A stretch of 32,549 nt of DNA from an uncultured Ruminococcus sp. (GTDB lineage Bacteria > Bacillota > Clostridia > Oscillospirales > Acutalibacteraceae): NCBI GenBank assembly GCA_902765625.1, contig CACXAO010000021.1, positions 1-32,549 of the forward strand. The letters run 5' to 3'. The position numbers and the translations under genes were made by a program. The notes under the pieces were generated by a model. It did no database searches and was not told the DNA's origin. It was given only the letters and a program-made list of their open reading frames with translations. This document shows positions 1-22,913 of the stretch, piece after piece (the stretch's first letter is position 1; each line of letters starts with the position of its first letter).

Positions 1-83
1 GGTTCTCGAGAAATCCCGATTCATTTATTGTAAATTCATCACAGGGCGGAGGTTTTAAGGACACATGGGTATTATCACGGTAG
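1..83 (+). CDS. Circularly permuted ATP-grasp protein, C-terminal fragment
   Basis: Only the end of this gene is in the window. Reading from base 3, the frame stays open to a TAG at 81-83 and ends in NSSQGGGFKDTWVLSR. A serine/glycine-rich stretch followed by KDTWVL is the typical C-terminus of circularly permuted type 2 ATP-grasp proteins (DUF404/DUF407 type), which are predicted to form peptide or amide bonds using ATP. The gene overlaps the start of the alpha-E gene by 19 bases, and these two families are usually adjacent, which supports the call. The catalytic part lies upstream of the window, so activity cannot be judged. The fragment is too short to be certain on sequence alone. Confidence 0.75.
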   Translation, partial: FSRNPDSFIVNSSQGGGFKDTWVLSR

Positions 84-733
84 ACAAGAGCGACCATCTT
101 TTTTGGCTGGGCAGATACACCGAGAGGGTGTACACGACTCTGAAATATTACTTTGAGAGCGCTGACAAGATGATTGACGAGAACCCCGAGTATTACGACG
201 AGTTTTGCCGCAAGGTAGGCATTCTGAATGTATACGGTACGAGCGAGAATTTTCTGAGGACATATCCCTTTGACGAGAACGACCCGAACTCTATCATTTC
301 GAATCTCAACCGCGCATACGACAACGCGATTGTAATGCGCGACTACATAGGCACGGAAACGATGGCATATATCCAGCTCGCGATCGACGACATTCACAAT
401 GCCGACAGGGGAGTGGCGGCGATAGCAGACCTGATGCTCGCGATTGACCACATTCTCGCTTTCTGGGGCTGCGTCAACGATATGATCGACAACGAGCAGA
501 TCCGCAATATCATAAAGCTCGGCAAGGGCTTGGAGAGGCTTGATTTGTATCTGAGCCTTGACCTGCCGGACAGCGACATCATCAGGGAGTACCGCAGAAT
601 GAAGCAGTTTCTGGCTAAGTCAAAGCTCAGGTACGACGAGAGCGTCATCAACACGGTGGACAGCATGATTTCGGATTCAAAGCTCAACCACAGGAATATC
701 AAAAACCTGCTGAGAAATCTCATAACCGAATGA
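65..733 (+). CDS. Alpha-E domain protein (DUF403 family)
   Basis: A 222-residue, mostly helical protein that opens with ITVDKSDHLFWLGRYTERV, the characteristic N-terminus of the alpha-E family (bacterial DUF403), whose members sit beside circularly permuted ATP-grasp and transglutaminase genes. The family has no proven reaction; it is predicted to be a partner in peptide synthesis or modification. Family members I know of are often around 300 residues, so this is a short version. The ATG follows a GGCGGAGG ribosome binding site (about 46-53) and overlaps the end of the ATP-grasp gene. Its TGA (731-733) overlaps the ribosome binding site of the next gene. No signal peptide or membrane segment is visible, so it is probably cytoplasmic. 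Confidence 0.85.
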   Translation: MGIITVDKSDHLFWLGRYTERVYTTLKYYFESADKMIDENPEYYDEFCRKVGILNVYGTSENFLRTYPFDENDPNSIISNLNRAYDNAIVMRDYIGTETMAYIQLAIDDIHNADRGVAAIADLMLAIDHILAFWGCVNDMIDNEQIRNIIKLGKGLERLDLYLSLDLPDSDIIREYRRMKQFLAKSKLRYDESVINTVDSMISDSKLNHRNIKNLLRNLITE

Positions 734-742
734 GGTGGTACT

Positions 743-1546
743 ATAAAACGGCTTAAATTTATTTACACACTGAATACGGAGTTCAGCGCGCCGGTTACGC
801 ATCACGCATTTTCGGTGATGTTTTTGCCGAAGGACACGAACAGGCAGAAAATCGAGAAACTTGATATTTATATTTCTGATAACGAAAAATACTGCTTGAC
901 TGAGGACAATTTCGGCAACCGCAAGTTTTACGGACTTATTGAGAAAACGCACGACCGCTTTGAGGTTGTAGTCAGCGGCGAGGCTCAGACAGGGCTTGAC
1001 ATCTGCGAGGAGCACACCCTCAATCCGTTTGCGTATTCGTTTTTGAAGGCGCAGACCGCACTTACTCAGCCCGGCGAAAAAATAAAAGAGTACCGCAAAA
1101 GCCTTGAGCTTGAAAAACTCACCGGCGATTACGACAAGGCGCTGTGTGTGATGAACACGCTTCATTACACCTTTGCCTACGATACCGAAGCGACCGCGGT
1201 GCACGAAACTGCCGAAAACGCGCTTGCGCTGGGACGCGGCGTGTGTCAGGACTACGCGCATATTATGCTCTCACTGCTGAGAACGGAAGGTATACCCGCG
1301 AGGTACGTCGTGGGAATGATGACAGGAGAGGGTTCGTCGCACGCTTGGGTTGAGGCGCTCTGCAACGGATACTGGTACGGCTTTGACCCGACAAACAACA
1401 AGCTCGTGAACGCCGACTATATCCGCGTTTCCTGCGGAAGAGATTCCGCCGACTGCTCGGTTATCCGCGGAAACTTTTACGGCTGCGTCACTCAGCGGCA
1501 GAATGAAAAGGTAGTAGCAGAAGAAAAGGACGAAAAATATGATTGA
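743..1546 (+). CDS. Transglutaminase-like cysteine protease family protein (proposed ATA start)
   Basis: Bacterial transglutaminase-like protein with the full papain-type triad: Cys168 in GVCQDYAH, His200 in SSHAW and Asp215 in FDPTNN (numbered from base 743). The first ~90 residues fit the beta-rich N-terminal domain found in this family. The first conventional start in frame is GTG at 815, but the frame is open right back to the alpha-E stop and the lost stretch (RLKFIYTLNTEFSAPVTHH) looks like the normal family N-terminus. The only start-like codon at the right distance from GAGG (732-735) is ATA at 743, giving 267 residues. It may cleave or ligate peptides made by the neighbouring ATP-grasp enzyme; that role is inferred from context. 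The 3' end overlaps the next gene by 8 bases, suggesting translational coupling. The fold is sure; the start is not. Confidence 0.85.
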   Translation: MKRLKFIYTLNTEFSAPVTHHAFSVMFLPKDTNRQKIEKLDIYISDNEKYCLTEDNFGNRKFYGLIEKTHDRFEVVVSGEAQTGLDICEEHTLNPFAYSFLKAQTALTQPGEKIKEYRKSLELEKLTGDYDKALCVMNTLHYTFAYDTEATAVHETAENALALGRGVCQDYAHIMLSLLRTEGIPARYVVGMMTGEGSSHAWVEALCNGYWYGFDPTNNKLVNADYIRVSCGRDSADCSVIRGNFYGCVTQRQNEKVVAEEKDEKYD

Positions 1547-2468
1547 AACTGTAGCGTCGGTCGGTTTGCCGATCGACGAGAAATTGATGATACAAAAAAA
1601 CCGCCTTGTTCCGGCAAACGGACTCAGCGGAAATGAAAAGCGGATAAGCGTTGTGACGGGTACCCACGGCGACGAGCTTGAGGGACAGTATGTATGCTAC
1701 GAGCTGCAGCGGAGAATCAAAGAAAACATCGAATGTCTTACGGGAATCGTCGACGTTTATCCCGCGATAAATCCGCTGGGAATCGACTCCATCACGCGCG
1801 GCATACCCGGCTTTGATCTGGATATGAACCGTATCTTTCCGGGGCTTGAAAACGGCTCGATGCCCGAATATATCGCCTCAAAAATTATAGATGATCTGAG
1901 CGGAAGCGCGGCGGTGGTCGACATTCACGCGAGCAATATTTTCCTCGAGGAGATTCCGCAGGTGCGCATCAACGAGCTGTCGCGCGATACGCTTGTTCCG
2001 CTCGCAAAGCTTCTGAACGTGGACTATATCTGGGTGCATTCCTCTGCTACGGTGCTCGAGTCTACGCTCGCGTATTCGCTCAACGTTATCGGCACTCCTA
2101 CTCTTGTTGTAGAGATGGGCGTCGGAATGAGAATCACCAAAAAATACGGCGACCAGCTGACGGACGGAATTCTGGCGCTCATGAAGGAACTTGGCATCTG
2201 GAACGGCGAGGTGATAACTCCGAAGGAGCCGATCATCTCCGAGGACGGCGAAGTGTCGTTTATCAACGCCGGGAAATCCGGCGTGTTTGTTCCTTGCGTC
2301 GGGCACTGGAAGAACGTAAAGAAGGACGGTCATATCGGCGATATCCTCAATCCGCTGACGGGTGAGATAAACGAGAGGATATTCGCTCCGACTGACGGAA
2401 TCGTCTTTACCCTGCGCGAATATCCTATTGTCAACGAAGGCTCGCTCATAGCGAGAATCCTTGCGTGA
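1539..2468 (+). CDS. Succinylglutamate desuccinylase/aspartoacylase family zinc hydrolase
   Basis: A 309-residue protein of the AstE/AspA branch of the M14 carboxypeptidase-like fold. These enzymes use one zinc to cleave an N-acyl amino acid or peptide amide bond. The zinc ligands are visible: His43 and Glu46 in GTHGDE and His130 in VVDIHAS. The substrate-contacting DLDMNR motif (93-98) and a VVEMG segment, likely carrying the catalytic glutamate, are also present. The C-terminal ~80 residues form a biotinyl/lipoyl-like beta domain usual in this family (NAGKSGVFVP, GDILNPLTGE). It overlaps the transglutaminase gene and is followed at once by a paralogue. The substrate is unknown; context suggests an amide made by the ATP-grasp/alpha-E system. 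Confidence 0.88.
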   Translation: MIETVASVGLPIDEKLMIQKNRLVPANGLSGNEKRISVVTGTHGDELEGQYVCYELQRRIKENIECLTGIVDVYPAINPLGIDSITRGIPGFDLDMNRIFPGLENGSMPEYIASKIIDDLSGSAAVVDIHASNIFLEEIPQVRINELSRDTLVPLAKLLNVDYIWVHSSATVLESTLAYSLNVIGTPTLVVEMGVGMRITKKYGDQLTDGILALMKELGIWNGEVITPKEPIISEDGEVSFINAGKSGVFVPCVGHWKNVKKDGHIGDILNPLTGEINERIFAPTDGIVFTLREYPIVNEGSLIARILA

Positions 2469-2476
2469 GGTGCGTT

Positions 2477-3415
2477 ATGAAAGAGAAGCTTTTATTTGAA
2501 CTCAATTCTGTCTACAGAGATAATATGCGCATCAAGGGCTATTCCTTCGGCGAGGGCGAGGAGTCGGCATGTATTGTAGGCGCGACCCGCGGCAACGAGG
2601 TGCAGCAGCTTTATATTTGTTCGCGGCTGATCAATATTTTCAAGCAGCTCGAGCATCAGGGCAAGATGAAATACGGCAAATCGGTGATGGTCATTCCGAC
2701 AGTCAACAGCCATTCAATGAATATCGGCAAGCGCTTCTGGTCGACCGATAACACCGACATCAACCGCATGTTCCCGGGCTACAGCCTCGGAGAAACGACT
2801 CAGAGGATTGCCGCCGGAGTGTTCGAGAACATAAGCTCCTATAAGTTCGGCATTCAGTTCACGAGCTTTTATATGCAGGGCGATTACATACCCCACGTCA
2901 GGGTAATGCAGACGGGCTTTGAGGATATAGAGCTTGCCAAGGACTTCGGGCTGCCGTATGTTTACCGCAGAAACGCCAGACCTTACGACACGACCACGCT
3001 CAACTACAACTGGCAGCTCTGGGAAACCAAGGCGTTTTCGGTTTATACAAGCGCGACCGACAAGATCGACGTAGTCAGCGCGAGGGAAGCAATCAACGCG
3101 GTGCTCAGTTTTCTGAACAAGCAGGGTATAATTCAGTACAGGTGCCACGAGGGTTTTATTTCGCAGTTTATAGAAGGACATTCGCTGATGAATGTAAAAT
3201 CCGCGACGGCGGGAATATTTATCCGTCATGCCGACGTTGATTCAAGGGTAAAAAAAGGCGACGTGATAGCGGAGATAATGGATCCGTACACGGGCGAGAC
3301 CGCCGACAGGGTGATAGCGCCGCAAAACGGAATCGTGTTCTTCCACGTGAACCAGCCGCTGATTTACTCCCAGACGCCGCTGTTCCGCATTATTCCGACG
3401 GACGATCTGGTATAG
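2477..3415 (+). CDS. Second aspartoacylase/AstE-like protein with degenerate zinc site
   Basis: A 312-residue paralogue of the preceding gene, with the same fold landmarks: GATRGNE (35-41), NTDINRMFPG and a C-terminal beta domain with KKGDVIAEIMDPYTGE. The zinc ligands are lost: the first His of the GxHGxE motif is Arg38 (codon CGC) while Glu41 is kept, and the VDIHAS segment is replaced by GIQFTS, so the second His is Phe. This predicts a non-hydrolytic protein, perhaps a partner or regulator of the intact paralogue. The ATG at 2477 is preferred over an upstream GTG at 2465 because GAGG (2467-2470) lies 6 bases before it. It is in the same operon, 8 bases after the preceding stop. Confidence 0.85.
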   Translation: MKEKLLFELNSVYRDNMRIKGYSFGEGEESACIVGATRGNEVQQLYICSRLINIFKQLEHQGKMKYGKSVMVIPTVNSHSMNIGKRFWSTDNTDINRMFPGYSLGETTQRIAAGVFENISSYKFGIQFTSFYMQGDYIPHVRVMQTGFEDIELAKDFGLPYVYRRNARPYDTTTLNYNWQLWETKAFSVYTSATDKIDVVSAREAINAVLSFLNKQGIIQYRCHEGFISQFIEGHSLMNVKSATAGIFIRHADVDSRVKKGDVIAEIMDPYTGETADRVIAPQNGIVFFHVNQPLIYSQTPLFRIIPTDDLV

Positions 3416-3455
3416 AAAAGACAGGAAATAAATATTTTATCAGGAGGTATTGTTT

Positions 3456-5976
3456 ATGGCGGCGTTTGACAGGATACTTTCGGGAATACCCGAGATGGAT
3501 AAGGCTCTCGACAACATCAGGCTCGGAGATAACGTTGTCTGGAGGGTATCGGATTTGGGCGAGTTCAGGCTTTTTATGGAGCCGTATGTGAGGCAGGCGG
3601 TCAAGGATAAGCGCAAAATCATCTATTTCCGCTTTGCCGCTCACGAGCCGCTGATAACGGACATACCCGAGGTTGAAACAATAAATATTCCTCTTTCGCA
3701 CCGCTTTGAGAACTTCACGGTTGAGATCCACAACGCTATCGAAAAAGCCGGCAGAGACGCATTTTATGTTTTCGACTGCCTTTCGGAGCTTCAGACGGCG
3801 TGGGCTACAGATCTGATGATGGGCAATTTTTTCAGAGTTACCTGTCCGTTTCTGTTTATCCTCGATACCGTGGCGTTTTTTCCTCTGATACGCGGAAAGC
3901 ATTCGGTCAATTCTGTCAACAAGATCATCGACACCACCCAGCTTTTCCTCGACGTATATACGGGCGGGAAGGATATTTTTGTCCGACCCGAGAAGGTCTG
4001 GAACCGCGATTCCGAAACGATGTTCCTGCCGCATACCTATGAGCCTTCAACTGGCAGATTCCGCCCTGTTACCGACGGAGTAAAGTCGAGCAGATTCTAC
4101 CATACGCTCGGCAAGCTGAGGCGAGGTACCGACGACAGATACATTGATTCGTGGGACAGATTCTTCAACACAGCCAAGCAGAAGTACTCGGCAGGAGGCG
4201 ACATCACCTCCGAGTGCGAGAGCATGTGCAGGGTAATGATGACCCGCGACCAGAAAATGCGCCTGATGGTAAAGAAGCATTTTTATCCAGAGGATTATTT
4301 TGAAGTCCGCAGCCACATGATAGGCACCGGAATGATAGGCGGCAAGGCGTGCGGAATGCTTCTGTCCAGAGCGATAATCCGCAACGAGCTACATCGGTTC
4401 GGACGTGTATTACACCTATATCGTCGACAACGGCTTCTGGGATATGCGGATTCGCCAGAGGACTGACGAGGGATATTTTGCGCTTGCCGACGAGTTCAGA
4501 AATCTGCTGCTAAACGGAAGCTTCTCCGACGATATGCGCGAGCAGTTCGGCAATATTATCGAATACTACGGTCAGGATCCGTACATCGTCCGCTCAAGCA
4601 GCATTCTTGAGGACGGCTTCGGCAACGCCTTCGCCGGTAAATACGAATCCGTTTTCTGCACGAACAGAGGCAGCTTTGAGGACAGGCTGGCAGAATTTGA
4701 GAACGCGATAAAAACCGTTTACGCCAGCACAATGGGACTTTCAGCTCTTGACTATAGAAAACGCCGCGGACTTGATAAGCGCGACGAGCAGATGGCGCTT
4801 CTGGTTCAGCGCGTTTCAGGCTCGTATTACGGCACATATTATATGCCCTGCGCGGCAGGCGTGGGTTATTCGTACAGCCCGTACAGATTCATGCAGACCG
4901 CAGACCCAAAGGCAGGTATGCTCAGGCTTGTCATGGGACTCGGAACCTCGGCGGTTGACAGAACAGAGGGTTCATATCCTCGTCTTGTCAGTCTTGACGT
5001 TCCCGAGAGGACGGTCTATTCGACCGTTGCAGACAGACACAGGTTTTCTCAGCGAAACGCCGAGGTAATAAATACAACCGCGCGAAAGCTCGAAACGGTA
5101 AAGCTCGAAGAATTGGAGCCGGTACTTCCGCGTTATACGGGCAACGTGCTTCTGGAGCACGATTTTGAAGCGGAGCAGCGACTGAGCGAGACGGGAAGGT
5201 ACCGCGCTGTGCGGTTTATCTCGTGCCGAGGACTTGTCAGGAACAAGAAGCTGATGGACAGCATGCGGCGTATGCTCGCTTGCATTCAGGCTGAATACGA
5301 TTACCCCGTCGACACGGAGTTCACGATAAACGTATCGGACGACGGAGAATATACTATCGACCTGCTCCAGTGCAGACCGCTTCAGGTCGTCAGGGGCAAG
5401 GATTCGGTGAATATTCCCGACGCTGCCGGGGAGAATATACTGCTGAGCAGCCGCGGTGCGTCTATGGGCTTGTCGCGCGAGGAAGAGCTCGATTATATCG
5501 TATATGTCGACCCGATCGGCTACTACAATATGCCCTATAAGGACAAGATCACCGTCGCGCAGATGATTGGCAGGATCAACTGGCATTTCCGCAGCTCGGA
5601 CAAGCATATGATGCTCATGGTTCCCGGAAGAATAGGAACTTCGTCGCAGGAGCTTGGAGTGCCGACTGCGTTTTCGGATATCAGCGGCTTTGACGTTATC
5701 TGCGAGATGGAAGAAACCAAAGCCGGCTATAACCCCGAGCTGTCCTACGGAAGTCACATCTTTCAGGACTTGGTTGAGGCTGAGATTCTTTACACGGCTG
5801 TGTTTAACAACAGCAAGACCCTCGGCTTTTATCCCGATAAGCTCAACCGCTTTGAGAATATTTCGGCTGAGTTCGACGAGAGCGGCGCGCTGTCGGAAAT
5901 CGTCAAGGTATTCCGCGTCAGCGGCTGTACCCTATATCATGATATCAACAAAGAACAGCTGCTTATTACGCTGTAA
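3456..5976 (+). pseudogene. PEP/pyruvate-binding domain protein, split by frameshift near 4380-4398
   Basis: One gene read in two frames. The first part (3456 to about 4390) starts at ATG after AGGAGG (3442-3447). It has a RecA/KaiC-like N-terminal region (ILSGIPEMDKAL, GDNVVW) without a Walker A motif, then ends in GGKACGMLLSRAIIRNE. The second part continues in the next frame with SYIGSDVYYTYIVDN and YIVRSSSILEDGFGNAFAGKYESVF, the ATP-binding signature of pyruvate phosphate dikinase/PEP synthase, then a CRPLQVV segment. The first frame runs on to a stop at 4466 as a shadow of the second. Homologues normally have residues between the two joined pieces, so I infer a small out-of-frame deletion rather than two genes. 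No phosphohistidine domain was recognised, so this is not a full PEP synthase. It is the last gene of the operon. It could be a true pseudogene or an assembly error. Confidence 0.8.
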
Positions 5977-6056
5977 CGGATTTTTTACCTGCATTTATTT
6001 CACCGAAGTGACGTTACCATTAGGTCAAAGTCCTGTCAGGCGCACCAAGCGAAGAT

Positions 6057-6102
6057 AATCCGAACCTTCTCCCTGTTGGAGACGGGTTCGGATTTGTTTT
6101 TT
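6057..6102 (+). terminator. Rho-independent terminator of the ATP-grasp/alpha-E operon
   Basis: A perfect 10-bp outer stem (6057-6066 with 6085-6094) encloses a second 5-bp stem (6068-6072 with 6078-6082) and is followed by a T-rich run from 6093 to 6103. It lies 80 bases after the last gene and before the next promoter, so it separates the two operons. Confidence 0.9.
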
Positions 6103-6159
6103 TAACTGTTCTTTTTTTCAGACGCAGCAAATCGCGGCGGCCGCTTTTTTAAACTTATC

Positions 6160-6188
6160 TTGAATCTTACTCAAAAATATGATATAAT
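6160..6188 (+). promoter_or_regulatory. Sigma-A promoter of the radical SAM/GH3 operon
   Basis: TTGAAT at 6160-6165 and a perfect TATAAT at 6183-6188 are separated by exactly 17 bases. Transcription would start near 6195, giving a leader of about 150 bases before the ATG at 6348. No cobalamin riboswitch signature is seen in the leader. Confidence 0.85.
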
Positions 6189-6251
6189 ATACAAAAATTT
6201 ATATAACAATCGACAAATAATCCGCTGCGGTAATTGGAATTGCGTGACGAA

Positions 6252-6296
6252 ATGAAATTACTGATGATACACGCACGGAATGAAGATGAACCATAA
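6252..6296 (+). other. Possible 14-codon leader ORF
   Basis: Between the promoter and the first radical SAM gene there is a short ORF reading MKLLMIHARNEDEP and then TAA. It has only a weak ribosome binding site (a GGAA about 12 bases upstream). The MKLLMIH opening resembles the first beta strand of B12-binding radical SAM proteins such as those downstream. It could be the relic of a further paralogue, a leader peptide or chance. Confidence 0.25.
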
Positions 6297-6347
6297 CGGC
6301 ATAACGCGGTTTTAACTTCCTCGGAACAGATAAACATACAGAAAGAA

Positions 6348-7664
6348 ATGAAGATAGCGGTAATACGACTGAACATGTTCGAGCACATAAGCTCGGACGC
6401 GATGAAGCCGATACTTTTCGGCATATTAAAAAGCCTGACTCCAAAGCGGTTTGATATTGAATTCTTTGACGAGCGGACAGAAAGACTTCCCGAGCGCATA
6501 GACGCGGATATAATTGCGTTCTCGGTTGAAACCTTTACGGCGAAACGCGCGTATATCCTCGCGAAAAAATACCGCACCTCTTCAAATATCATCGCAATGG
6601 GCGGTTTTCACGCGGGCGTTATGGCGGAAGAAATGCTCGGTTACGCCGATACGGTGCTCGTCGGAGACGCGGAGGGCAACTGGGAGCGGTTCCTCGTCGA
6701 CTGCGAAAACGGCAAGCCGAAAAGAACATATTACGCCGACGAAACCGCGCCGCTGACCGAGCTGTACGACGACGGAAAAACATATAAACATAAGTATTTC
6801 GGGCTGGGAGTTCATCAGCTGTCGCGCGGCTGCAAATTCAACTGCGGCTTCTGTTCGATAAAGACTATGTACAAATGCGTCCGCAGAAAGCCTGTCGATA
6901 TGATCGTCCGGGAGCTTTCGGCTGCAAAGGAAAAGCTCATCTTTTTTGCGGACGACAACATTTTTTATGACCGCAGCTCCGCCGCCGAACTGTTCCGTGC
7001 GCTGATTCCGCTGAAAAAGAAGTGGGCGTGTCAGATAAGCATGGACGCTGCGAGCGACGACGAGCTTCTGAGCCTGATGAAGAAATCGGGCTGTTTTCTG
7101 GTGCTGATGGGCTTTGAGAGCCTGAGCCGCGAGAGTCTTTCGGAGATGCACAAGGCGGCGAATCTCAGCTTGGATTACGACTCGCTGATCAGGAATATTT
7201 ACCGTCACGGTCTGCTGATTTACGGAACCTTTGTGCTCGGATGTGACGGCGACAGCACCGACGTTTTTGAACGAACCTTTGCGTTTGCGAAGAGGAACAA
7301 CATCGCCGTCACAAATTTCAATCCGCTGATTCCGATGCCGGGAACGGAGGTATATCTGCGTATGGAGCGCGAGGGCAGGCTGCGCTATCGCAAATGGTGG
7401 CTGTCCGATAAGTACCGCTACGGCGAGACCGCTTTTGTGCCGAAAAATATGTCTCCGCAGGAGCTTCAGGACGGATGCCTGAAAATGAGGACGGATTATT
7501 ACTCCGCGGGCTGCATTTTGAAGCGGCTTTTCGGAAACAAATATAATTTTTTGCCGATGAACTTTTTTGTGTTCATGGCGGCGAATCTTATTTCGAAAAA
7601 GGAAATAAAAAGAAAGCAGGGTCAACTGTTGGGAGGTGTTCTCGGTGAAACTGACGCTGATTAA
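6348..7664 (+). CDS. B12-binding-domain radical SAM enzyme, paralogue 1
   Basis: A 438-residue cytoplasmic enzyme. The N-terminal ~130 residues form a cobalamin-binding-like Rossmann domain (MGGFHAGVMAEE, YADTVLVGDAEGNW). The radical SAM core follows, with the 4Fe-4S cluster motif C162xxxC166xxC169 in SRGCKFNCGFCS. Further motifs shared with its neighbours are FFADDN, GFESL and KWWLSDKYRYGE. Members of this superfamily use S-adenosylmethionine, often with cobalamin, for radical methylation, ring formation or C-C bond chemistry. The substrate is unknown. It is the first of seven tightly packed genes, and the next gene overlaps it by 20 bases. The family call is sure; the function is not. Confidence 0.93.
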   Translation: MKIAVIRLNMFEHISSDAMKPILFGILKSLTPKRFDIEFFDERTERLPERIDADIIAFSVETFTAKRAYILAKKYRTSSNIIAMGGFHAGVMAEEMLGYADTVLVGDAEGNWERFLVDCENGKPKRTYYADETAPLTELYDDGKTYKHKYFGLGVHQLSRGCKFNCGFCSIKTMYKCVRRKPVDMIVRELSAAKEKLIFFADDNIFYDRSSAAELFRALIPLKKKWACQISMDAASDDELLSLMKKSGCFLVLMGFESLSRESLSEMHKAANLSLDYDSLIRNIYRHGLLIYGTFVLGCDGDSTDVFERTFAFAKRNNIAVTNFNPLIPMPGTEVYLRMEREGRLRYRKWWLSDKYRYGETAFVPKNMSPQELQDGCLKMRTDYYSAGCILKRLFGNKYNFLPMNFFVFMAANLISKKEIKRKQGQLLGGVLGETDAD

Positions 7665-9000
7665 ACCTAATATCGGGCGCAGGGAGCACAGCCTGTACGT
7701 TGACGAGGGACGAATGGAACCGCTGCCGCTTGGCATTCTCGCGGCGCTTACTCCCGATGATATCGAGGTTGTGATGTACGACGACCGCATGGAGCAGATT
7801 CCCTACGACGAGCCTACGGATCTTGTCGCGGTCACGGTGGAAACCTTTACCGCGCGCCGCGCCTACGAAATCAGCGCCGAGTACCGGAAACGCGGCGTGA
7901 GCGTCGTTATGGGCGGAATGCACGCCATGCTTATTCCCGACGAGGTAGAGCGGCACTGCGACTGCGTTATCGTAGGCGACGCGGAGCCGGTTTGGGCGCA
8001 GATGTGTTCGGATTTCCGGGCAGGCAGGTTGAAAAAACGCTATGCAGCTGTTCAGCCTTCGTGTCCGCAGGAGGGAATCATTGCGCGTCGCGATATTTTT
8101 GAGGGAAAGGGCTATCTGCCGATAACGCTGCTTCAATTCTCGCGCGGCTGTTCGCACAGGTGCAGCTTCTGCGCGTCGTCGGTGTATTTCGGCGCAAGGC
8201 ATTTCTGCCGTCCTGTAGATGAGGTGGTCAGGGAGATCAAGTCGCAGAAGCGCAGGCTGCTGTTCTTCGTCGATGATAACATCGTCTGTAACCACGCAAA
8301 GGCAAAGGAACTGTTCCGTGCGCTGATTCCGCTGAAAGTCCGCTGGGTCAGCCAAGGCAGCATGGATATGCTTGCCGACAGGGAGCTGATGGAGCTGATG
8401 GTAAAAAGCGGCTGTCTCGGGCTTGTGATCGGATTCGAGAGCATTTCTCCGCAGTGCATAAGCGACATGCGCAAATACACCAACAAACGCGCGGCTTCCG
8501 ATATGTACTCGCATGAGATCGCCGAGCTTAGGAAATGGGGCTTGCAGACTTGGGCGGCGTTCACCGTAGGTCACGACGGCGACACTGTAGAGTCTATCCG
8601 CGCCACCTGCGACTTTGCGATACGCAATAAGTTCACCTTTGCGGCATTCAATATTTTGATGCCTTACCCGAACACTCCGCTTTATGAGCGGCTTGAAAAA
8701 GAGGGCAGACTTCTGTACGGCGGAAAATGGTGGCTGCACGAGGAATACCGCTTTAACTACTCAAGTATCGTACCGAAAAATATGACGGCGGACGAGCTGA
8801 CCGAGATATCCTTTGACTGCCGCCGCCGATTTAACAGCGCGCGCTCGATTTTTGTCCGCGCGTTCGAGCCGCATACAAATATGAGAACGCCGTACAGGTT
8901 TCTTACATATCTGATGTACAATCCGCTGTTCCGCAAGGAGGTTTTCAAGAAGCAGGGACTGAGGTTCGGGCTTGAAGAAGCGAAAGGAGACGACCGATGA
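7645..9000 (+). CDS. B12-binding-domain radical SAM enzyme, paralogue 2
   Basis: A 451-residue paralogue of the preceding gene. A B12-binding-like N-terminal domain (MGGMHAMLIPDE, CDCVIVGDAEPVW) is followed by a radical SAM core with C169xxxC173xxC176 in SRGCSHRCSFCA, then FFVDDN, GFESI and KWWLHEEYRFN. The GTG at 7645 is chosen because GGGAGG (7631-7636) lies 8 bases upstream; the GTG at 7636 would sit inside that site. The start lies within the end of paralogue 1, and the end shares an ATGA with the next gene, so translation is probably coupled. The substrate is unknown. The similarity to paralogues 1 and 4 suggests successive or parallel steps of one pathway. Confidence 0.92.
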   Translation: MKLTLIKPNIGRREHSLYVDEGRMEPLPLGILAALTPDDIEVVMYDDRMEQIPYDEPTDLVAVTVETFTARRAYEISAEYRKRGVSVVMGGMHAMLIPDEVERHCDCVIVGDAEPVWAQMCSDFRAGRLKKRYAAVQPSCPQEGIIARRDIFEGKGYLPITLLQFSRGCSHRCSFCASSVYFGARHFCRPVDEVVREIKSQKRRLLFFVDDNIVCNHAKAKELFRALIPLKVRWVSQGSMDMLADRELMELMVKSGCLGLVIGFESISPQCISDMRKYTNKRAASDMYSHEIAELRKWGLQTWAAFTVGHDGDTVESIRATCDFAIRNKFTFAAFNILMPYPNTPLYERLEKEGRLLYGGKWWLHEEYRFNYSSIVPKNMTADELTEISFDCRRRFNSARSIFVRAFEPHTNMRTPYRFLTYLMYNPLFRKEVFKKQGLRFGLEEAKGDDR

Positions 9001-9692
9001 AGGGCAAGGTCATTAAGATAAACGAGGCGGCGACCGCCGACATCGACGCGATGTACGCGCTGATGGACGAATTTTACGACAATATGGACAGAGCCGTGTT
9101 CGAGCGCGATTTTTACGCAAAGGACTATTGCATAATCCTGCGTAACGACGAGGGCAGGCTTGTGGGCTTCACCACACAAAAGGTGATGACCGTCACCGTA
9201 GACGGCAGAGAGATTCACGGAATGTTTTCGGGCGATACGATAATTCACAGGGACTACTGGGGCGACACCGAGCTGTTTCGGGTCTGGGCGCAGTTCTGGT
9301 TCCCGTACGCCGAGCAGTATGATGAGTTCTACTGGTTCCTTATCTGCAAGGGCTACAAGACATACCGCATTCTGCCGCTTTTCTGGCGCGAGTTTTACCC
9401 CAAATGCAGAACCGAAACGCCCGAATACGAGAGAAAAATAATTGACGCCTACGCTTCTCTGCTGTATCCCGACGAGTACAACAGAGAGACGGGCGTAATC
9501 GAATACAGGCACGTCAAGGACAGGCTTAAACCGGGCGTTGCGGATATTGACGGGCGCAGAATAAAGAATAAGGATATCGCGTTTTTCAACGCCGTCAATC
9601 CGCACCACGCCGACGGCAACGACCTCGCCTGTCTCGCGAAAATCGACCGTTCGCTGCTCAGACGGCATTCAGAGGAGCTGCTGTTCCGATGA
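8997..9692 (+). CDS. GNAT-like acyltransferase (putative), 231 aa
   Basis: The N-terminal half fits a GNAT acetyltransferase fold: an early helix (IDAMYALMDEFYDNMD), strands CIILRND, GRLVGFTTQKVMTV and a region MFSGDTIIHRDYWGDTEL where acyl-CoA-binding beta4 and the pyrophosphate loop are expected. The classic Q/RxxGxG/A loop is not obvious, so acyl-CoA use is uncertain. No signal peptide or membrane segment is seen. It is joined by ATGA overlaps to paralogue 2 upstream and the GH3 gene downstream, so it belongs to the same pathway. It could transfer an acyl or amino-acyl group in product assembly; that is inference. Confidence 0.65.
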   Translation: MKGKVIKINEAATADIDAMYALMDEFYDNMDRAVFERDFYAKDYCIILRNDEGRLVGFTTQKVMTVTVDGREIHGMFSGDTIIHRDYWGDTELFRVWAQFWFPYAEQYDEFYWFLICKGYKTYRILPLFWREFYPKCRTETPEYERKIIDAYASLLYPDEYNRETGVIEYRHVKDRLKPGVADIDGRRIKNKDIAFFNAVNPHHADGNDLACLAKIDRSLLRRHSEELLFR

Positions 9693-11209
9693 TATCGTGC
9701 AGAATGCTCAACGGCGCGTGCAGGCTGCTCTACAGCGGCGAATACAGGCGGTTTCGTTCCGTCAATAATATCGGGCAGGCGCAGCAGGACTACCTGTTTC
9801 GTTTGCTCGGAAAAAACGCAGATACCGTTTACGGAAGGCGGTACGGCTTCTCCGGGATATCATCCTATAAGGAGTTTGCCGCGAGGGTTCCGTTGACAAG
9901 GTATGAGGATTATGAAAAGTATATCCACGATATCGCTGACGGCGCCGGGAATGTTCTGACAGCGGAAAAGGTGCTGCTGTTCGAGCCGACGAGCGGTTCA
10001 TCGGGCGGCAAAAAGCTTATTCCGTACACAGCCGCGCTCAAGGCTGAGTTCCAGCGCGGAATAAAGCCGTGGCTCTATGATATTTATAAAAACGTCGGCG
10101 GCGCGTCGTCAGGCAAAAGCTACTGGTCGATCACGCCCGTTACGGCAGGCAGGAGCACTACAAAGGCAGGGATACCGATCGGCTTTGAGGAGGATTCCGC
10201 GTATTTCGGACGGTTCGGACAGGCGCTTGTCAACAGGATATTCGCGGTTGACGGGAGCGTAAAATTTCCCGAAAGCATGGACGCCTTCTGGCTTGAAACC
10301 GCAAGGCAGCTGCTTAAATGCAAAAGTCTCACGCTTATTTCCGTTTGGAACCCGACGTTTCTGACGATCCTTTGCGGACATATCCGCGATAGCTTTACTA
10401 AATTAAAAAATGAACTCCCCGTTTCGCGTGCGGAGGAGATATACCGCGGACTGAGCGAAAACCGCTTTGACATGGTTTTTCCGGATCTGAAAATCATAAG
10501 CTGCTGGGCTGACGGCAGCGCGTTTAAGGACGCGGAGGAGCTGAAAAAGCTGTTTCCGACGGTGTATTTGCAGCCAAAGGGACTGCTTGCTACGGAGTAC
10601 TTTGCTTCTTTTCCGCTTGTCGGGGAGGAGGGAGGCAGGCTGAGCTTAAATTCGCATTTCTTTGAGTTCAGGCGACCGGACGGAAAAATCATTACCGCAG
10701 AAGGACTTGAACGCGGTGAATATGAGCTGATCGTCACAACAGGCGGCGGCTTTTACCGCTATATGACAGGCGATGTGATCGAGGTTTTTGAAACATATCC
10801 TGCCGAGCCGCCGCGAATCGGATTTTTGCGCAGAAGCGGAGTCACAAGCGACCTCCGCGGCGAAAAGCTGACGGACGACTTCGTCCGCTCAGTGTGCGAG
10901 CGGCTGGGCATTGCAAAAGACTTCTGTCTGCTCGCTCCCGAGGATAACGGCTACACCCTCTACACATCATCGCCCTCGGTTACCTGCGAAGCGCTTGACC
11001 GTGCTCTCAGGGAAAGCTATCACTACAACTATTGCCGCGAGCTTGGACAGCTCTCTCAGGCGCGCGTCGTCCGGGTCGCGGAAAATTCACACGAAATATA
11101 CCTCAAACGCCTTGTCGGCGACGGCATGCGGCTCGGCGATATCAAGCCCGCTTATCTCAGCTCAAAAAGCGGGTGGCGCCAATGCTTTGAAACAGGTGAA
11201 ACAAAATGA
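9689..11209 (+). CDS. GH3 family acyl-adenylating/amide-forming enzyme
   Basis: A 506-residue bacterial member of the GH3 (auxin-responsive promoter) family, a branch of the adenylate-forming ANL superfamily. The ATP-binding motif FEPTSGSSGGKKLIPYT (98-114) is complete. Other landmarks are YLQPKGLLATEYFASFPL, where the adenylate-binding motif is expected, YELIVTTGGGFYRYMTGDVIEV, and a small C-terminal domain with NSHEIYLKRLVGDGMR. Plant GH3 enzymes activate a carboxylic acid with ATP and join it to an amino acid. Bacterial ones are largely uncharacterised, so an acyl-amide product is inference. The gene overlaps both neighbours by ATGA, placing it mid-operon among radical SAM and GNAT-like genes. 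The length is normal for the family. Confidence 0.9.
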   Translation: MISCRMLNGACRLLYSGEYRRFRSVNNIGQAQQDYLFRLLGKNADTVYGRRYGFSGISSYKEFAARVPLTRYEDYEKYIHDIADGAGNVLTAEKVLLFEPTSGSSGGKKLIPYTAALKAEFQRGIKPWLYDIYKNVGGASSGKSYWSITPVTAGRSTTKAGIPIGFEEDSAYFGRFGQALVNRIFAVDGSVKFPESMDAFWLETARQLLKCKSLTLISVWNPTFLTILCGHIRDSFTKLKNELPVSRAEEIYRGLSENRFDMVFPDLKIISCWADGSAFKDAEELKKLFPTVYLQPKGLLATEYFASFPLVGEEGGRLSLNSHFFEFRRPDGKIITAEGLERGEYELIVTTGGGFYRYMTGDVIEVFETYPAEPPRIGFLRRSGVTSDLRGEKLTDDFVRSVCERLGIAKDFCLLAPEDNGYTLYTSSPSVTCEALDRALRESYHYNYCRELGQLSQARVVRVAENSHEIYLKRLVGDGMRLGDIKPAYLSSKSGWRQCFETGETK

Positions 11210-12546
11210 AAATAGCACTATTGGCTCCTGCGGGAGCCATGCACAGATATTCGGGCAGCTTCGGAAAATCGCTGCACTACGCGCCGCTGACTCTTACGAC
11301 TCTCGCCGCGCTCGTGCCGGAGGAGGCTGAGGCGGAAATAAAAATATACGACGAAACGGCAGGTAAAATACCGCTCGACATCGACGCGGATCTGATCGGC
11401 ATTACCTGCATAACGGGAACAGCGCCGCGCTGCTACGCCTTCGCCGACTATTACCGCAAAAGAGGGGTCACCGTATTTATGGGCGGCGTACACCCGTCAA
11501 TGCTGCCCGACGAAGCGGCACGTCATGCCGACGTAGTATTCACGGGCTTTTCTGAGCAGACCTTCCCTCAGTTTATCCGCGATTATATGAGCGGCAGCTT
11601 CAAAAAGCTGTACGCGCAGAACTGCGACTTTTCAATCGCAAACAGACCGCTGCCACGTCGTGAGCTGCTGAATAAAAAACGCTATATCACGATCAACACG
11701 GTGGAAGCTATTCGCGGCTGCTGCCACCGCTGCAGCTTCTGCGCCTATCCGGCGGCGTTCGGTCACCCGGTTTACAAGCGCCCGGTTAAGGAGGTCATCG
11801 CGGAGATCGAGGCGCTTCATTCCCGTCATGTCCTCTTTCCCGACGTTAATCTGATCGCTGACAGGGCGTACGCGATCGAGCTGTTTTCGGCGATGATACC
11901 GCTGAAAATCATGTGGGTCGGCTTGGTCACCTCCGCTGTCGGTATCGACGACGAGCTTATCACCGTGTTCCGCAAAAGCGGCTGCAAGGGCTTGCTTATC
12001 GGCTTTGAGTCGATCACTCAGGAGTCGCAGCGCTATATTCACAAGGGCGTTAACAGGGTAGACGGCTACATCGACCTCATGAAGCGCCTGCACGACAACG
12101 GCATTCTGGTTCAGGGCTGCTTCGCTTTCGGCGGCGACGAGGAGGATACGAGCGTTTTTGAGAGAACCGTTGAGACCGTTATCAAGGCAAAAATCGATCT
12201 GCCGCGCTATTCTATTTTAACTCCGTTTCCGCGAACAGAGCTTTACGCGCAGCTCGAGCGAGAGGGAAGAATAACGGAGCGCAACTGGGCGATGTACGAC
12301 GTTCAGCACTGCGTTTTCAAGCCGAAAAAAATGACGAAGGAGCAGCTTGAGGAGGGCACCGACCTCGCATGGCGGCTGACCTATTCAACGGGAAATATAA
12401 TGAAGCGGCTCATGCCTATGCGCCACAGTCCGTGGCTGTCGGTTCCGCTTAATCTGGGCTACAAGGGCTACGCGGACAAATGGCACAAATTCACCAGAGA
12501 GGTCATGTGCGACAATTCGGATATACCGGGCGTTTCGGAGAACTGA
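11206..12546 (+). CDS. B12-binding-domain radical SAM enzyme, paralogue 3 (divergent)
   Basis: A 446-residue enzyme with the same layout as its neighbours: a B12-binding-like N-terminal domain (MGGVHPSMLPDEAARHADVVFTGF) and a radical SAM core with C172xxxC176xxC179 in RGCCHRCSFCA. It is the most divergent of the four. The DDN motif of the others is PDVN here, the VETFT segment is ITGTA, VGDAE is TGFSE, and the KWWL motif is missing. It probably acts on a different substrate or catalyses a different step. The ATG shares an ATGA with the GH3 stop, and one base separates its stop from the next ATG. The reaction is unknown. Confidence 0.92.
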   Translation: MKIALLAPAGAMHRYSGSFGKSLHYAPLTLTTLAALVPEEAEAEIKIYDETAGKIPLDIDADLIGITCITGTAPRCYAFADYYRKRGVTVFMGGVHPSMLPDEAARHADVVFTGFSEQTFPQFIRDYMSGSFKKLYAQNCDFSIANRPLPRRELLNKKRYITINTVEAIRGCCHRCSFCAYPAAFGHPVYKRPVKEVIAEIEALHSRHVLFPDVNLIADRAYAIELFSAMIPLKIMWVGLVTSAVGIDDELITVFRKSGCKGLLIGFESITQESQRYIHKGVNRVDGYIDLMKRLHDNGILVQGCFAFGGDEEDTSVFERTVETVIKAKIDLPRYSILTPFPRTELYAQLEREGRITERNWAMYDVQHCVFKPKKMTKEQLEEGTDLAWRLTYSTGNIMKRLMPMRHSPWLSVPLNLGYKGYADKWHKFTREVMCDNSDIPGVSEN

Positions 12547-12547
12547 T

Positions 12548-13879
12548 ATGAAAATTACGTTTATCCTGCCTGCGATCGGCAAGAAGCAGGGGAAAAAATA
12601 CATCGGCACGTGGAAAATGGAGCCGCTCACCGTAGCCGTGCTCAAGGCGCTTACGCCTTGGAACGTCCAAACAGAGCTGTTTGACGACAGAATCGAGCTG
12701 ATCGATTACAATACGAAAACCGACCTTGTCTGCATAACTGTCGAAACCTATACCGCGAAGCGCAGCTACCAAATCGCCGCGCGTTTCCGCGAACGGGGAA
12801 TACCCGTCGTTATGGGCGGCTATCACGCGACCATCTGTCCCGAAGAAACGGAGAATTACTGCGACAGCGTTATCGTGGGCAACGCCGAGGGAGTGTGGCG
12901 GCAAATGCTCGCCGACGCGGGAAACCGCAGGCTGCAAAAGCGTTATGCCGGCGGAATCGGCACGTACTCGGTCAGACCCGACAAGAGCATTTTTACGGGG
13001 AAAAAATACCTTCCAGTATCGCTCGTCGAAACGGGACGGGGCTGCAACCACAGCTGCGAATTCTGTTCAATTTCGCGGTTCTATGACAGCCGTTACCATG
13101 CGCGCAGCCATGAGCTGATTGAATCGGATATCAAAGCGTCGCCTTACAAATACTTCTTTCTCGTTGACGACAATCTTGTCGCGAACAGAAAAAACGCGCT
13201 TGAGCTGTTCCGGCGGATCGAGCCTCTGAAAATCAAGTGGGCAGGACAGGGCACGCTCTCGATGGCGAAGGATCCCGAGCTTCTGAGGGCGATGAAGAAA
13301 AGCGGCTGCGAAATTATTCTCATAGGCTTCGAGAGCCTTGACAACGCCAATCTGAAGCAGATGAACAAGTCGTTCAACTACGCGCTCGGCGAGCGCGACG
13401 AGCTTGTAAAGCGCGTTCACGACGCAGGAATAGGCATTTACGCGACGTTTGTTTTCGGCTACGACAACGACGACGAAAAGACGGTTGAGCAGGCGCTGCA
13501 ATTCTCAAAAAAGCATAATTTCTATACCGCGGCGTTCAATCATCTGCTGCCGTTTCCGAACACAAGACTTTACGACCGCCTCAAAGAGGAAAACAGGCTG
13601 ATTTACGACAAGTGGTGGCTTGCCGACGGCTACAACTACGGCGAGCTTTCGTTCGTTCCGAAAAAAATATCTCCCGAGGGTCTGAGCAAGGCGTGCAGGG
13701 ACGCGCGAAAGGAGTTTTCGTCGTTCGGCACTGTCATGAGCCGCGGCTTTGCCTCTCTCGGACGGACAAGTCCGCTGCTTTGGGGACTGTTCTGGGGTAT
13801 GAACCTGCGAATCGGAGGCGAGGTCGACCAAAAGATGAACGTACCGATAGGAGAAAACTTAGATGAGCTTCCAAAGTGA
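12548..13879 (+). CDS. B12-binding-domain radical SAM enzyme, paralogue 4
   Basis: A 443-residue protein with an N-terminal B12-binding-like domain (MGGYHATICPEETENYCDSVIVGNAEGVW) and a radical SAM core carrying C166xxxC170xxC173 in GRGCNHSCEFCS. FLVDDN, GFESL and KWWLADGYNYGELSFVPKK align with paralogues 1 and 2, so these three form one subfamily. It starts one base after paralogue 3 ends, and its 3' end overlaps the last gene of the operon by 17 bases. The substrate is unknown. Superfamily enzymes with this architecture include methyltransferases and cyclases. Confidence 0.92.
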   Translation: MKITFILPAIGKKQGKKYIGTWKMEPLTVAVLKALTPWNVQTELFDDRIELIDYNTKTDLVCITVETYTAKRSYQIAARFRERGIPVVMGGYHATICPEETENYCDSVIVGNAEGVWRQMLADAGNRRLQKRYAGGIGTYSVRPDKSIFTGKKYLPVSLVETGRGCNHSCEFCSISRFYDSRYHARSHELIESDIKASPYKYFFLVDDNLVANRKNALELFRRIEPLKIKWAGQGTLSMAKDPELLRAMKKSGCEIILIGFESLDNANLKQMNKSFNYALGERDELVKRVHDAGIGIYATFVFGYDNDDEKTVEQALQFSKKHNFYTAAFNHLLPFPNTRLYDRLKEENRLIYDKWWLADGYNYGELSFVPKKISPEGLSKACRDARKEFSSFGTVMSRGFASLGRTSPLLWGLFWGMNLRIGGEVDQKMNVPIGENLDELPK

Positions 13880-14912
13880 ACAGCACGGAAAATACCTTTT
13901 GCGTCTGGCAAATCCCGGCGACAACGACGGTATACGAAAAATATTTGAAAGCGGAAGCTTTGCAGGCGGACTGAACGTGCAGTTCCTGCGCGGAGAGCAG
14001 CCGCTGTCGTCGTTCGTGGCGGACGGCGACGCAGCCCGTATCCTTGTTGCCGAGGACACAAAAGAAAACCGTCTGATCGCGGTCGGCGGCGCTGTGGTGC
14101 GGACAGAGTATCTGAACGGCGCTCCTGCGAGCTGCGCATACCTGACAGGGCTTAAGATACATCACGATTACCGCGGCAGGCTGACGTTTATTCCCCGTGC
14201 GTACGGCATAATGGGAGAGCTGGTTTCAGACTGCGCGGCTACATATACAACTATTCTCGACGGCAACACCGGCGTGATAAGAATGCTCGAAAAGCGGCGC
14301 AAAAATATGCCGGAGTACAATTATCTCGGACATTATACCACCTTTTGCCTTGGCGGCGGAAAAAAGCTGATGAATGTTGAAAAGAACCGCACCGACGGCT
14401 TTGATACTCTCTTGCGGCGGCATTTCAGCCGGAAAAGCCTGACACCCTGCTGTCCCGATTACGAGGGCTTCGGAAAAAAGGATTTTTACTGTATCCGCGA
14501 TAACGCCGGACAGATCGCCGCATGCTGCTTTATCGGCGACCAGAGCAGGACGAAATACTACAAAATGTGTTCCTACGGAGGAATTTACCGGCTTATCTCA
14601 CATCTTCCGACGGGACTTTTAGGCTATCCGTCCTTTCCTAAGTCGGGAGAAAATATTAAATGCGGCGTGATTTCTTACCTGTATGTGCGCGGAAACGACG
14701 CGGAGTTATGCAAACGCTTTCTCCTGTCAGCCGCTCATGAAAGCGGATTTCCGCTGCATCTGTGGGGCGGTTTTGACGGCGACCCCTTGTGTTCCGCTGT
14801 GGGCAGGATGAAAACGGTGAAATACGGCAGCCGGCTTTACGAGGTGCTGTGGAACGAAAACACCAAAACCCGTATCGGCGGCGCAATAGCCGTTGAGGCG
14901 GCGTTGCTGTAA
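13863..14912 (+). CDS. GNAT-family acyltransferase, possibly with two GNAT-like halves
   Basis: A 349-residue protein. The N-terminal half has a recognisable GNAT pattern: LRLANPGDNDGIRKIFE, RILVAEDTKENRLIAVGGAV and SCAYLTGLKIHHDYRGR, the strand and helix that bind acyl-CoA. The C-terminal half again shows strand patterns (FYCIRDNAGQIAACCFIGDQ, CGVISYLYVRGND), so it may be a tandem GNAT fold; this is less sure. It is the last gene of the seven-gene operon and overlaps paralogue 4 by 17 bases. A role in acylating the pathway product is inferred from context. No signal peptide is present. Confidence 0.75.
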   Translation: MSFQSEQHGKYLLRLANPGDNDGIRKIFESGSFAGGLNVQFLRGEQPLSSFVADGDAARILVAEDTKENRLIAVGGAVVRTEYLNGAPASCAYLTGLKIHHDYRGRLTFIPRAYGIMGELVSDCAATYTTILDGNTGVIRMLEKRRKNMPEYNYLGHYTTFCLGGGKKLMNVEKNRTDGFDTLLRRHFSRKSLTPCCPDYEGFGKKDFYCIRDNAGQIAACCFIGDQSRTKYYKMCSYGGIYRLISHLPTGLLGYPSFPKSGENIKCGVISYLYVRGNDAELCKRFLLSAAHESGFPLHLWGGFDGDPLCSAVGRMKTVKYGSRLYEVLWNENTKTRIGGAIAVEAALL

Positions 14913-18046: not shown

Positions 18047-18802
18047 ATGAGAAAGATTATTATTCTGTTATTGGCTGCGGCGGCCTGCGTAACGGCGACC
18101 GCATGCTCGCTTCAGTTACCCGACGCGGAAAGCGCCGCAGCGACAACGGGCGTTACTGCCCCGGAGTCAGCCAAGACAACCGAAAAGACTACCGAAAAGA
18201 CCACCGTGAAGCCTGATGAAAAGGCGACGGAGAACACGACCTCGCAACCTACAACAGAAGCGCCGGCTGAAACTACCGCAGAACCTGCGGCGGAAGATCC
18301 GACCGATCCTCCTCAAAACGCGTCATGGAAAACAGCTTATATCGAATATCTGGATTCTCTGGACGAAAGCAGGTACAGGGGATTTGAGCTGATTTACATC
18401 GATGATGACGACATTCCCGAGCTCGTTGCGATTTCAGAATCGCATATCGGCGTCAGTAATCTGTGCTGGATTTATCAGCACGAATTATGCAAAGAAAATA
18501 TCTCGTTCATCGGAATAAAGTATTTTGAGAAAGAGAATCGCTATTTTTACCATGAGACTTTCACCGGAGCCGGATTCGAATCGATCAGAAGTCTGAACGG
18601 AAGCGAATCTGAGATAATTAAAAAAGGTAACTTCTGCACTGTCAAAAATCTGGGAGAATATTATTGCTGGGACGGCGTTGATTACGATACTAAGGACGAA
18701 TACGATGCGGCAGTGGATGCCGACTTTGACAAAAACGCCGCAAAATCTACCGATGACCTCAAATCCTATTCCGAAATCCGCGGGCAAATCACAAGCTTTT
18801 AA
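18047..18802 (+). CDS. Hypothetical lipoprotein with Thr/Glu-rich linker
   Basis: A 251-residue lipoprotein. The signal peptide ends in TATAC, giving a lipidated Cys20. Residues ~25-90 are a low-complexity linker rich in Thr, Glu, Pro and Ala, with KTTEKTTEKTT repeats, which probably spans the cell wall. The folded part begins near WKTAYIEYLDSL and contains FELIYIDDDDIPELVAI, a pattern common in uncharacterised surface lipoproteins of ruminococci and related Clostridia. No enzyme motif is visible. The start follows AAAGGAG (18034-18040) at good spacing. It is a single-gene unit with its own promoter and terminator. The function is unknown. Confidence 0.8.
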   Translation: MRKIIILLLAAAACVTATACSLQLPDAESAAATTGVTAPESAKTTEKTTEKTTVKPDEKATENTTSQPTTEAPAETTAEPAAEDPTDPPQNASWKTAYIEYLDSLDESRYRGFELIYIDDDDIPELVAISESHIGVSNLCWIYQHELCKENISFIGIKYFEKENRYFYHETFTGAGFESIRSLNGSESEIIKKGNFCTVKNLGEYYCWDGVDYDTKDEYDAAVDADFDKNAAKSTDDLKSYSEIRGQITSF

Positions 18803-18928: not shown

Positions 18929-18964
18929 ATAATAATGCAAATTATTATCGGCATCTGGTGTTTT

Positions 18965-19681
18965 ATGAAAAGATTAGGAATTATAGCAATTATTGCGGCG
19001 TTTTGCGTGTTTCTGACCGCTTGCGACAGCGGTGGAGAGCAGGTTACAACAACGGCTCCCGAGGTTGTGATTCAAGCCGCCAAGGTGAAAAATAAAATAT
19101 CGGTAGCACGCGAGGAGAGCTTTGAATACACCGACAACAACGGCAACGCCTACAGCGCGACCTACCGCATTCCTTCAATAAATTTCGATAACGACGACTC
19201 CGAAAAAGCAAACGAGGAGATAGTTGAGAAGTACACGCCCGACTTTGAAAAGGCGGAGAAGGAGAGCGCTTCGAGAAACGGTCTGACCTGCGACTCGCTC
19301 AATTACGAGAAGTTTGAGAACAATGGTATTCTCAGCGTTGTAATAAAGCGCGTGTATTACTCGCACGCCGTCGATTACTCCGTCTACAACTTCAATTCAA
19401 AGACCGGCGATGCTCTCAGCGGCAGCGACGTTGCCAAGGCTTCAAAGCTGAGCTGGGACGAGGTTACGGAGACCCTCAGGACGGAGCTTGAGAAGGACTA
19501 CGTCTCAAAATACAAAACCTCAAAGCCCGAAAAATACGAAGAGAATCTCGAAAAGACCCTGTCCGACGACAATCTCGGCAGCGCCATGCTGTACCTCGGC
19601 AAGGACGGCAAGCTGACAGCCATCTGCAAGGAGTACGCAAGCGTTGGAGCAGGCGAGTTCTCGGTAGTGCTGACGATTTAA
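18965..19681 (+). CDS. Lipoprotein with DUF3298/DUF4163-like domain
   Basis: A 238-residue lipoprotein. The signal peptide MKRLGIIAIIAAFCVFLTAC gives a lipidated Cys20. The rest resembles the DUF3298/DUF4163 pair found in extracellular parts of RsiV-type anti-sigma factors and PdaC-type deacetylases: RIPSINFDNDD near the N-terminus, then YSHAVDYSVYNFNSKTGDALSG and LSWDEVTETLRTELE. The catalytic domain that sometimes accompanies it is absent. ATG 18965 is preferred because the signal peptide begins there and the in-frame ATG at 18935 lies at the predicted transcription start. The ribosome binding site is weak. The function is unknown; a cell-surface binding role is likely. Confidence 0.75.
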   Translation: MKRLGIIAIIAAFCVFLTACDSGGEQVTTTAPEVVIQAAKVKNKISVAREESFEYTDNNGNAYSATYRIPSINFDNDDSEKANEEIVEKYTPDFEKAEKESASRNGLTCDSLNYEKFENNGILSVVIKRVYYSHAVDYSVYNFNSKTGDALSGSDVAKASKLSWDEVTETLRTELEKDYVSKYKTSKPEKYEENLEKTLSDDNLGSAMLYLGKDGKLTAICKEYASVGAGEFSVVLTI

Positions 19682-22431: not shown

Positions 22432-22471
22432 TATCGTTTTTTTAGAGCCATAGGTGAAAGGAGGGATGATG

Positions 22472-22909: not shown

Positions 22910-22913
22910 CGGA

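Follow-up and report, generated by a model that had tools for sequence, protein, structure and literature searches.

What does a run of radical SAM, GH3 and acyltransferase-like genes in an uncultured Ruminococcus make, and do the genes belong together at all? The window, that is, the whole stretch of 32,549 nucleotides analysed here, carries four radical SAM genes (R1 to R4), one GH3 gene and two genes for GNAT-type proteins (N1 and N2). Radical SAM enzymes catalyse reactions that are beyond most other catalysts, and GH3 enzymes use ATP to activate a carboxylic acid and join it to an amine. The reading preferred here, held with about even confidence, is that the genes form a cassette for small-molecule biosynthesis in anaerobic gut Clostridia, which would be both inherited and moved as a single block and in which GH3 would make an amide, the GNAT proteins would acylate and the radical SAM enzymes would tailor the product. 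In most related loci a fifth radical SAM paralogue, R0, stands ahead of R1. The features of the locus are as follows.

6051-6104, forward strand: hairpin followed by a T-run (RNA fold -25.9 kcal/mol, z -4.30, 0 of 200 shuffles as good).
6160-6188, forward strand: promoter-like site TTGAAT-17-TATAAT (10 of 12 matches, TG before the second hexamer).
6252-6292, forward strand: 5' remnant of R0, which reads MKLLMIHARNEDEP and then meets a stop.
6299-6351, forward strand: remnants of the interior and 3' end of R0, only partly above shuffles; the last of them shares its ATGA with R1.
6348-7664, forward strand: R1, radical SAM protein with a B12-like domain, forming a module with R2 (PF04055 1e-12, PF02310 sub-threshold).
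7645-9000, forward strand: R2, radical SAM protein with a B12-like domain (PF04055 1.8e-14; best NCBIfam model PhpK, 96 of 600 bits).
8997-9692, forward strand: N1, protein with a predicted GNAT fold, in the constant part of the cassette.
9689-11209, forward strand: GH3, acyl-acid amido synthetase-like protein, constant part (PF03321, PF23571 and PF23572 above cut-off).
11206-12546, forward strand: R3, radical SAM protein with a B12-like domain, constant part.
12548-13879, forward strand: R4, radical SAM protein with a B12-like domain, forming a module with N2 (PF04055 4.9e-16).
13863-14912, forward strand: N2, GNAT-family protein and last cassette gene, assigned through the Pfam matches of its relatives and not its own.

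By the open reading frame calls of the window, the seven intact genes span 6348-14912 on the forward strand. The preliminary description had them joined by ATGA or longer overlaps. This is true of most junctions: R2/N1, N1/GH3 and GH3/R3 share an ATGA, R4 and N2 overlap by 17 nt, and R1 and R2 overlap by 20 or 29 nt, depending on the start of R2. R3 and R4, however, are separated by 1 nt. The R2 frame could open at GTG 7636, with an alternative GTG at 7645 that sits 8 nt after GGGAGG; the latter agrees better with the start of R2 in the relatives, MKLTLIKPN.

The consensus promoter that was proposed to drive the genes is present at 6160-6188, but it is weak evidence, because chance alone would give 1.2 such sites in the 501-base stretch concerned. 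The hairpin at 6051-6104 likely terminates the upstream gene and isolates the cassette. No cobalamin riboswitch was found at the operon, the only match in the window at an Rfam gathering threshold being a tmRNA gene (32042-32385, tag DKNTVALAA). The genome has one cobalamin riboswitch, on another contig (C39), which shows B12 regulation and says nothing about the cassette enzymes.

Against the preferred reading, the block encodes no carrier protein, transporter, regulator or scaffold synthase, so that general metabolism must supply its starting materials.

The predicted GH3 protein agrees with the adenylating type first proposed for it. Its N, M and C domains score 126.1, 42.5 and 30.3 bits against a Pfam cut-off of 23.6, and the key positions of three nucleotide motifs, TSGSSGGKK, LLATE and GGFYRYxxGD, are invariant in all 15 rows of the alignment. 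The accessible part of PMC12493201 quotes matching motifs for plant GH3 proteins and for OlsH, the bacterial GH3-type enzyme that makes N-acyl ornithine in the OlsH/OlsI ornithine lipid pathway of Planctomycetes. OlsH (NF052613) is also the sole NCBIfam match of the cassette GH3, at 35.3 bits against a cut-off of 620 and over residues 19-117 only.

The radical SAM genes encode proteins of 438-454 residues. Four such enzymes with B12-binding-like domains had been described. The radical SAM part stands, as PF04055 is above cut-off in all four (1e-12 to 2e-17) and the cysteines of the cluster motif CX3CX2C are invariant in 22 of 22 alignment rows, R0 included. The Pfam B12-binding score, in contrast, is above cut-off in R3 alone and below it in R1, R2 and R4. 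The R3 model has a Rossmann domain ahead of the radical SAM barrel, and its residues 1-421 align with TsrM and OxsB, but equally with MiaB. MiaB is not known to be cobalamin-dependent. The closest entry to R3 in the PDB, by modelled fold and by sequence, is AprD4 (6fd2), at 19% identity. With AprD4 as the closest fold and three of the four Pfam B12 scores sub-threshold, the term B12-domain does not serve as a statement about the cofactor. As far as the accessible part of PMC13331322 goes, cobalamin-dependent radical SAM enzymes have no universal lower-ligand motif.

Curated family models place the four enzymes only at a distance. Against HpnJ (TIGR03471, cut-off 577.6 bits), R1 to R4 score 91.4, 84.5, 92.1 and 90.8 bits; against PhpK (TIGR04479, cut-off 600), 68.6, 96.2, 54.1 and 52.9; and against the radical SAM enzyme of ladderane-type lipids (TIGR04072, cut-off 360), 51.6, 53.3, 74.3 and 59.2. 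Against AprD4 (NF033070, cut-off 500), R1, R2 and R3 score 38.4, 49.9 and 59.8, and R4 is not among the matches listed. The best NCBIfam model is HpnJ for R1, R3 and R4 and PhpK, a model of P-methyltransferases, for R2, all far below cut-off. Membership in the OlsH, HpnJ, AprD4, PhpK and ladderane families was rejected on these scores. Methylation, which had been put forward as the chemistry, is not supported either: R1, R3 and R4 lie nearest to HpnJ, a non-methylating enzyme according to the accessible part of PMC13142503, and only R2 leans towards a methyltransferase.

These distant matches suggest a first alternative to a small-molecule cassette, namely a membrane lipid pathway. The radical SAM enzymes would couple, cyclise or methylate fatty chains, and GH3, acting like OlsH, would link an amino acid to a fatty acid, so that an unusual amino lipid results. 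In its favour, the radical SAM enzymes (R1, R3 and R4 in particular) have HpnJ, BchE and ladderane-type models among their best matches and share the Rossmann and radical SAM layout with them, and the one NCBIfam match of the GH3 is to a maker of N-acyl ornithine (PMC12493201, as far as its accessible part goes). Yet that match reaches 35 of 620 bits, the HpnJ scores are 85-92 of 578, and the cassette enzymes stand at 15-21% of the cut-offs for the HpnJ, BchE and ladderane-type models. The block has no hopanoid or chlorophyll genes and no partner gene such as an O-acyltransferase like OlsI, and the OlsH/OlsI pathway, in the accessible part of its description, has no radical SAM enzymes. A lipid product is thus possible but unlikely.

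The likeness of R3 to AprD4 points to a second alternative, an aminosugar or aminocyclitol metabolite. R3 would be an AprD4-like diol dehydratase, the GNAT proteins would acylate amino groups and GH3 would attach an acid. An identity of 19% and scores of 38-60 of 500 bits for R1 to R3 are low for such an assignment, GNAT folds are generic, and the block has neither an AprD3-like reductase to partner R3 nor a sugar gene. This alternative is a little less probable again than a lipid.

For the GNAT-type proteins the evidence comes from the modelled fold and from relatives. On their own, N1 and N2 of the window have no Pfam or NCBIfam match at E 0.001. The N1 model has a GNAT-like fold, and three of the 15 N1 alignment members match PF13527, the best at 0.047. 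The GNAT family PF00583 is found in 13 of 14 N2 alignment members at E<=1 (best 5e-8), the exception being N2 of the window, which matches PF13527 only (12 bits, E 0.21, against a cut-off of 25 bits). Two GNAT-type proteins, as first described, are thus predicted. Catalysis by them is weakly supported, since the match of the window's N2 is sub-threshold, and this counts against the preferred reading.

Whether the genes form one unit can be judged from related loci. A GH3 scan of the genomes of 84,980 species gave 15 (L009-L023), all Clostridia by title; the titles of five refer to a gut site in goat or water deer. In ten of these loci, eight genes stand in the order R0-R1-R2-N1-GH3-R3-R4-N2, with N2 of L013 cut by a contig end. 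The remaining five comprise L015, without R1 and R2; L016 and L023, both truncated at contig ends; and L020 and L021, where the 388 and 535 bases that precede R1 hold no R0. A class sample of 391 genomes added three orthologous blocks: L060 (R1-R2-N1-GH3-R3-R4-N2); L061 (R1-R2-N1-GH3-R3), whose R4-N2 pair lies on another contig, L077, of the same genome (G457); and L062 (N1-GH3-R3-R4-N2), in a genome (G226) that is 88% complete. The cassette measures 8.6-9.9 kb.

With the window, this makes 19 loci, and the counts below are out of those whose contig allows judging. Constancy of GH3 follows by construction, because the loci were found through it. N1 adjoins GH3 in 18 of 18 loci that reach that far, and R3 adjoins it in 19 of 19, so the co-occurrence in other genomes on which the proposed single pathway depended is found in every locus reaching these genes. 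R1 and R2 co-vary, both being present in 16 of 18 and both missing in two (L015 and L062). R4 follows R3 in 17 of 18 loci, R4 and N2 adjoin in 18 of 18 (L077 included), and R0 is present in 12 of 18 and absent from its place in six. Absences were checked genome-wide for the window and the three class-sample genomes.

Some loci carry additional frames. L011 has an acetyltransferase-looking one between R2 and N1 (8832-9287), and L022 has one at about 8800-9320 (R2/N1) and another at about 12840-13430 (R3/R4), one hydrophobic and one unassigned.

The recurrence of the gene order in 18 other loci bears out a single co-inherited block. The seven-gene operon and the set of four radical SAM enzymes fit the window, where all these genes are intact, but the usual set is eight genes, including five for radical SAM enzymes, and the remains of the eighth gene had been missed.

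These remains were traced by ungapped matching to four relatives (L009-L012), each compared with 200 shuffles. The R0 start matches 6252-6292 at 28, 27, 30 and 32 of 39 bases in L009, L010, L011 and L012, where the best shuffle gives 24-25. The inner piece exceeds all shuffles in one of the four relatives, L012 (12 of 13 bases; best shuffle 11). The 3' piece matches 23, 22, 24 and 24 of 38 bases against a best shuffle of 22, and so is above shuffles in three relatives and equal to them in L010. The pieces are colinear, with R0 nucleotide 1095 matched in three of the four relatives and nucleotide 1261 in all four. Likewise, blastn similarity of the block takes in part of the 3' piece (up to 6308) for L009 and L012, though not for L010 and L011. 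R0 was accordingly lost by internal deletion, after which the ends decayed. No other R0-type copy was found in the window genome. Both congeners with the block, the genomes of L009 and L010, retain R0.

A decayed R0 in a genus where two congeners keep the gene raises the question of whether the whole block is a non-functional, decaying leftover in this species. The other seven genes, however, are intact and under purifying selection. Their dN/dS against L009 and L010 is 0.036-0.164; against L012 it is 0.043-0.115 for six genes, N2 being saturated. R3 is the most conserved (94-95% identity), and N2 and GH3 are the least. Moreover, R0 is missing from its place beside R1, or from the block, in five other loci too, and a leftover is accordingly quite improbable. 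A modified peptide or protein, with radical SAM enzymes that C-methylate or crosslink it as MgmA or RiPP enzymes do, is more improbable still, because the genes abut or overlap, so that a precursor gene would not fit into the block, where none was seen, and known GH3 cases act on small acids.

In three genomes, the radical SAM enzymes of the cassette score at least 369 bits against their common profile and the next radical SAM protein at most 44. A maximum-likelihood tree was built from 46 rows: the window, seven of the 15 loci L009-L023 and contigs of three class-sample genomes, with R2 of L060 left out. It has five groups, one per radical SAM gene, each with support of 99-100. The tree divides into R0+R3 and R1+R2+R4 (by a midpoint root, with no outgroup and long branches), and the grouping of R2 with R4 is weak (82/39). 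The genes share a history, since the same pairs (the window with L009, L018 with L019) recur inside the groups.

For the small-molecule cassette, the following route can be proposed. GH3 would activate a carboxylic acid with ATP and join it to an amine, and N1 and N2 would acylate amines with CoA or ACP as the acyl donor. After or before the GH3 and GNAT steps, R0 to R4 would dehydrate, cyclise, rearrange or methylate the substrate at unactivated positions. The scaffold would be made by N1, GH3 and R3, with R1+R2, R4+N2 and R0 as tailoring modules. That R1 goes with R2 and R4 with N2 points to steps carried out by two enzymes, and the loss of R0 points to a modification that is optional, either a last or a side step, so that the window species should make the product without one modification. 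A more specific version, which would amount to a new kind of anaerobic biosynthetic logic, is put forward only tentatively: a single acyl amide made by GH3 is the substrate of as many as five sister radical SAM enzymes that descend from each other within the cassette, and through removable modules related gut bacteria make a graded series of products of an undescribed class.

In keeping with the earlier statement that no described cluster has this set, none was found in the open-access literature, which misses most subscription journals; among open-access papers mentioning both GH3 and radical SAM, no title concerns such a cluster. If the reading is correct, the cassette is a lead to a gut metabolite not yet described and to new radical enzyme reactions. 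Natural copies without one, two or three radical SAM enzymes each predict which modification disappears, and a block of this size is small enough to be expressed whole. A culture of Ruminococcaceae bacterium P7, the source of L009, may exist, since its record is titled as an organism and not as a MAG.

The borders of the block are sharp. Among L009, L010, L011 and L012, blastn similarity sets in no more than about 12 bases from the start of R0 and ceases no more than about 55 bases from the stop codon of N2, and their flanks have no blastn match to one another. The relatives carry different genes 3' of N2, with which the block ends. By tblastx at 1e-5, the window has no flanking similarity to L009 or L010, and none of ten proteins encoded in its flanks has a match in L009-L023.

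The window's upstream genes are typical of the genus (74-82% DNA identity in four congeners). Those at 65-5976 encode an alpha-E protein, a transglutaminase-like protein, two AstE/AspA-type proteins, an unassigned protein and a PPDK_N ATP-binding protein. Parts of this set are conserved in congeners, and it may be a separate peptide- or amide-forming system. Frames at 3450-4466, 18047-18802, 18935-19681 and 22442-23083 have no Pfam match at E 0.001. The flank gene at 4405-5976 occurs in eight of 80 congeners, the window included; in four of the seven others, which were examined, the block is absent from the 0.5-5.6 kb of sequence downstream of it. No precise empty site can be given, because none of the four shows the window's downstream genes.

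The cassette is also rare. In the genus, three of 161 genomes have R3 at E<=1e-60; coordinates identify the other two, G1227 and G1241, as the genomes of L009 and L010 (RUG581). In the class, the cassette occurs in four of 391 sampled genomes. Cassette-type GH3 was found in the window genome alone among 394 sampled from the order, 14 others having distant GH3 only, and again in the window genome alone among 98 relatives, with distant GH3 in four others. A search for N1 in 398 family genomes, a draw that left out both congeners with the block, gave its own copy and one chance-like match of 39 residues with a stop. The different surroundings in congeners, together with this rarity, point to transfer of the discrete cassette as a unit.

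Most GH3 matches in the class (21 of 25) are distant. Four of these 21 neighbourhoods were read and contain no cassette enzymes, although one short frame in L066 was matched by R2 at 0.001. Seven clostridial genomes (G113, G147, G186, G277, G368, G389 and G936) have at least two distant GH3 genes, often adjacent and unrelated to the cassette.
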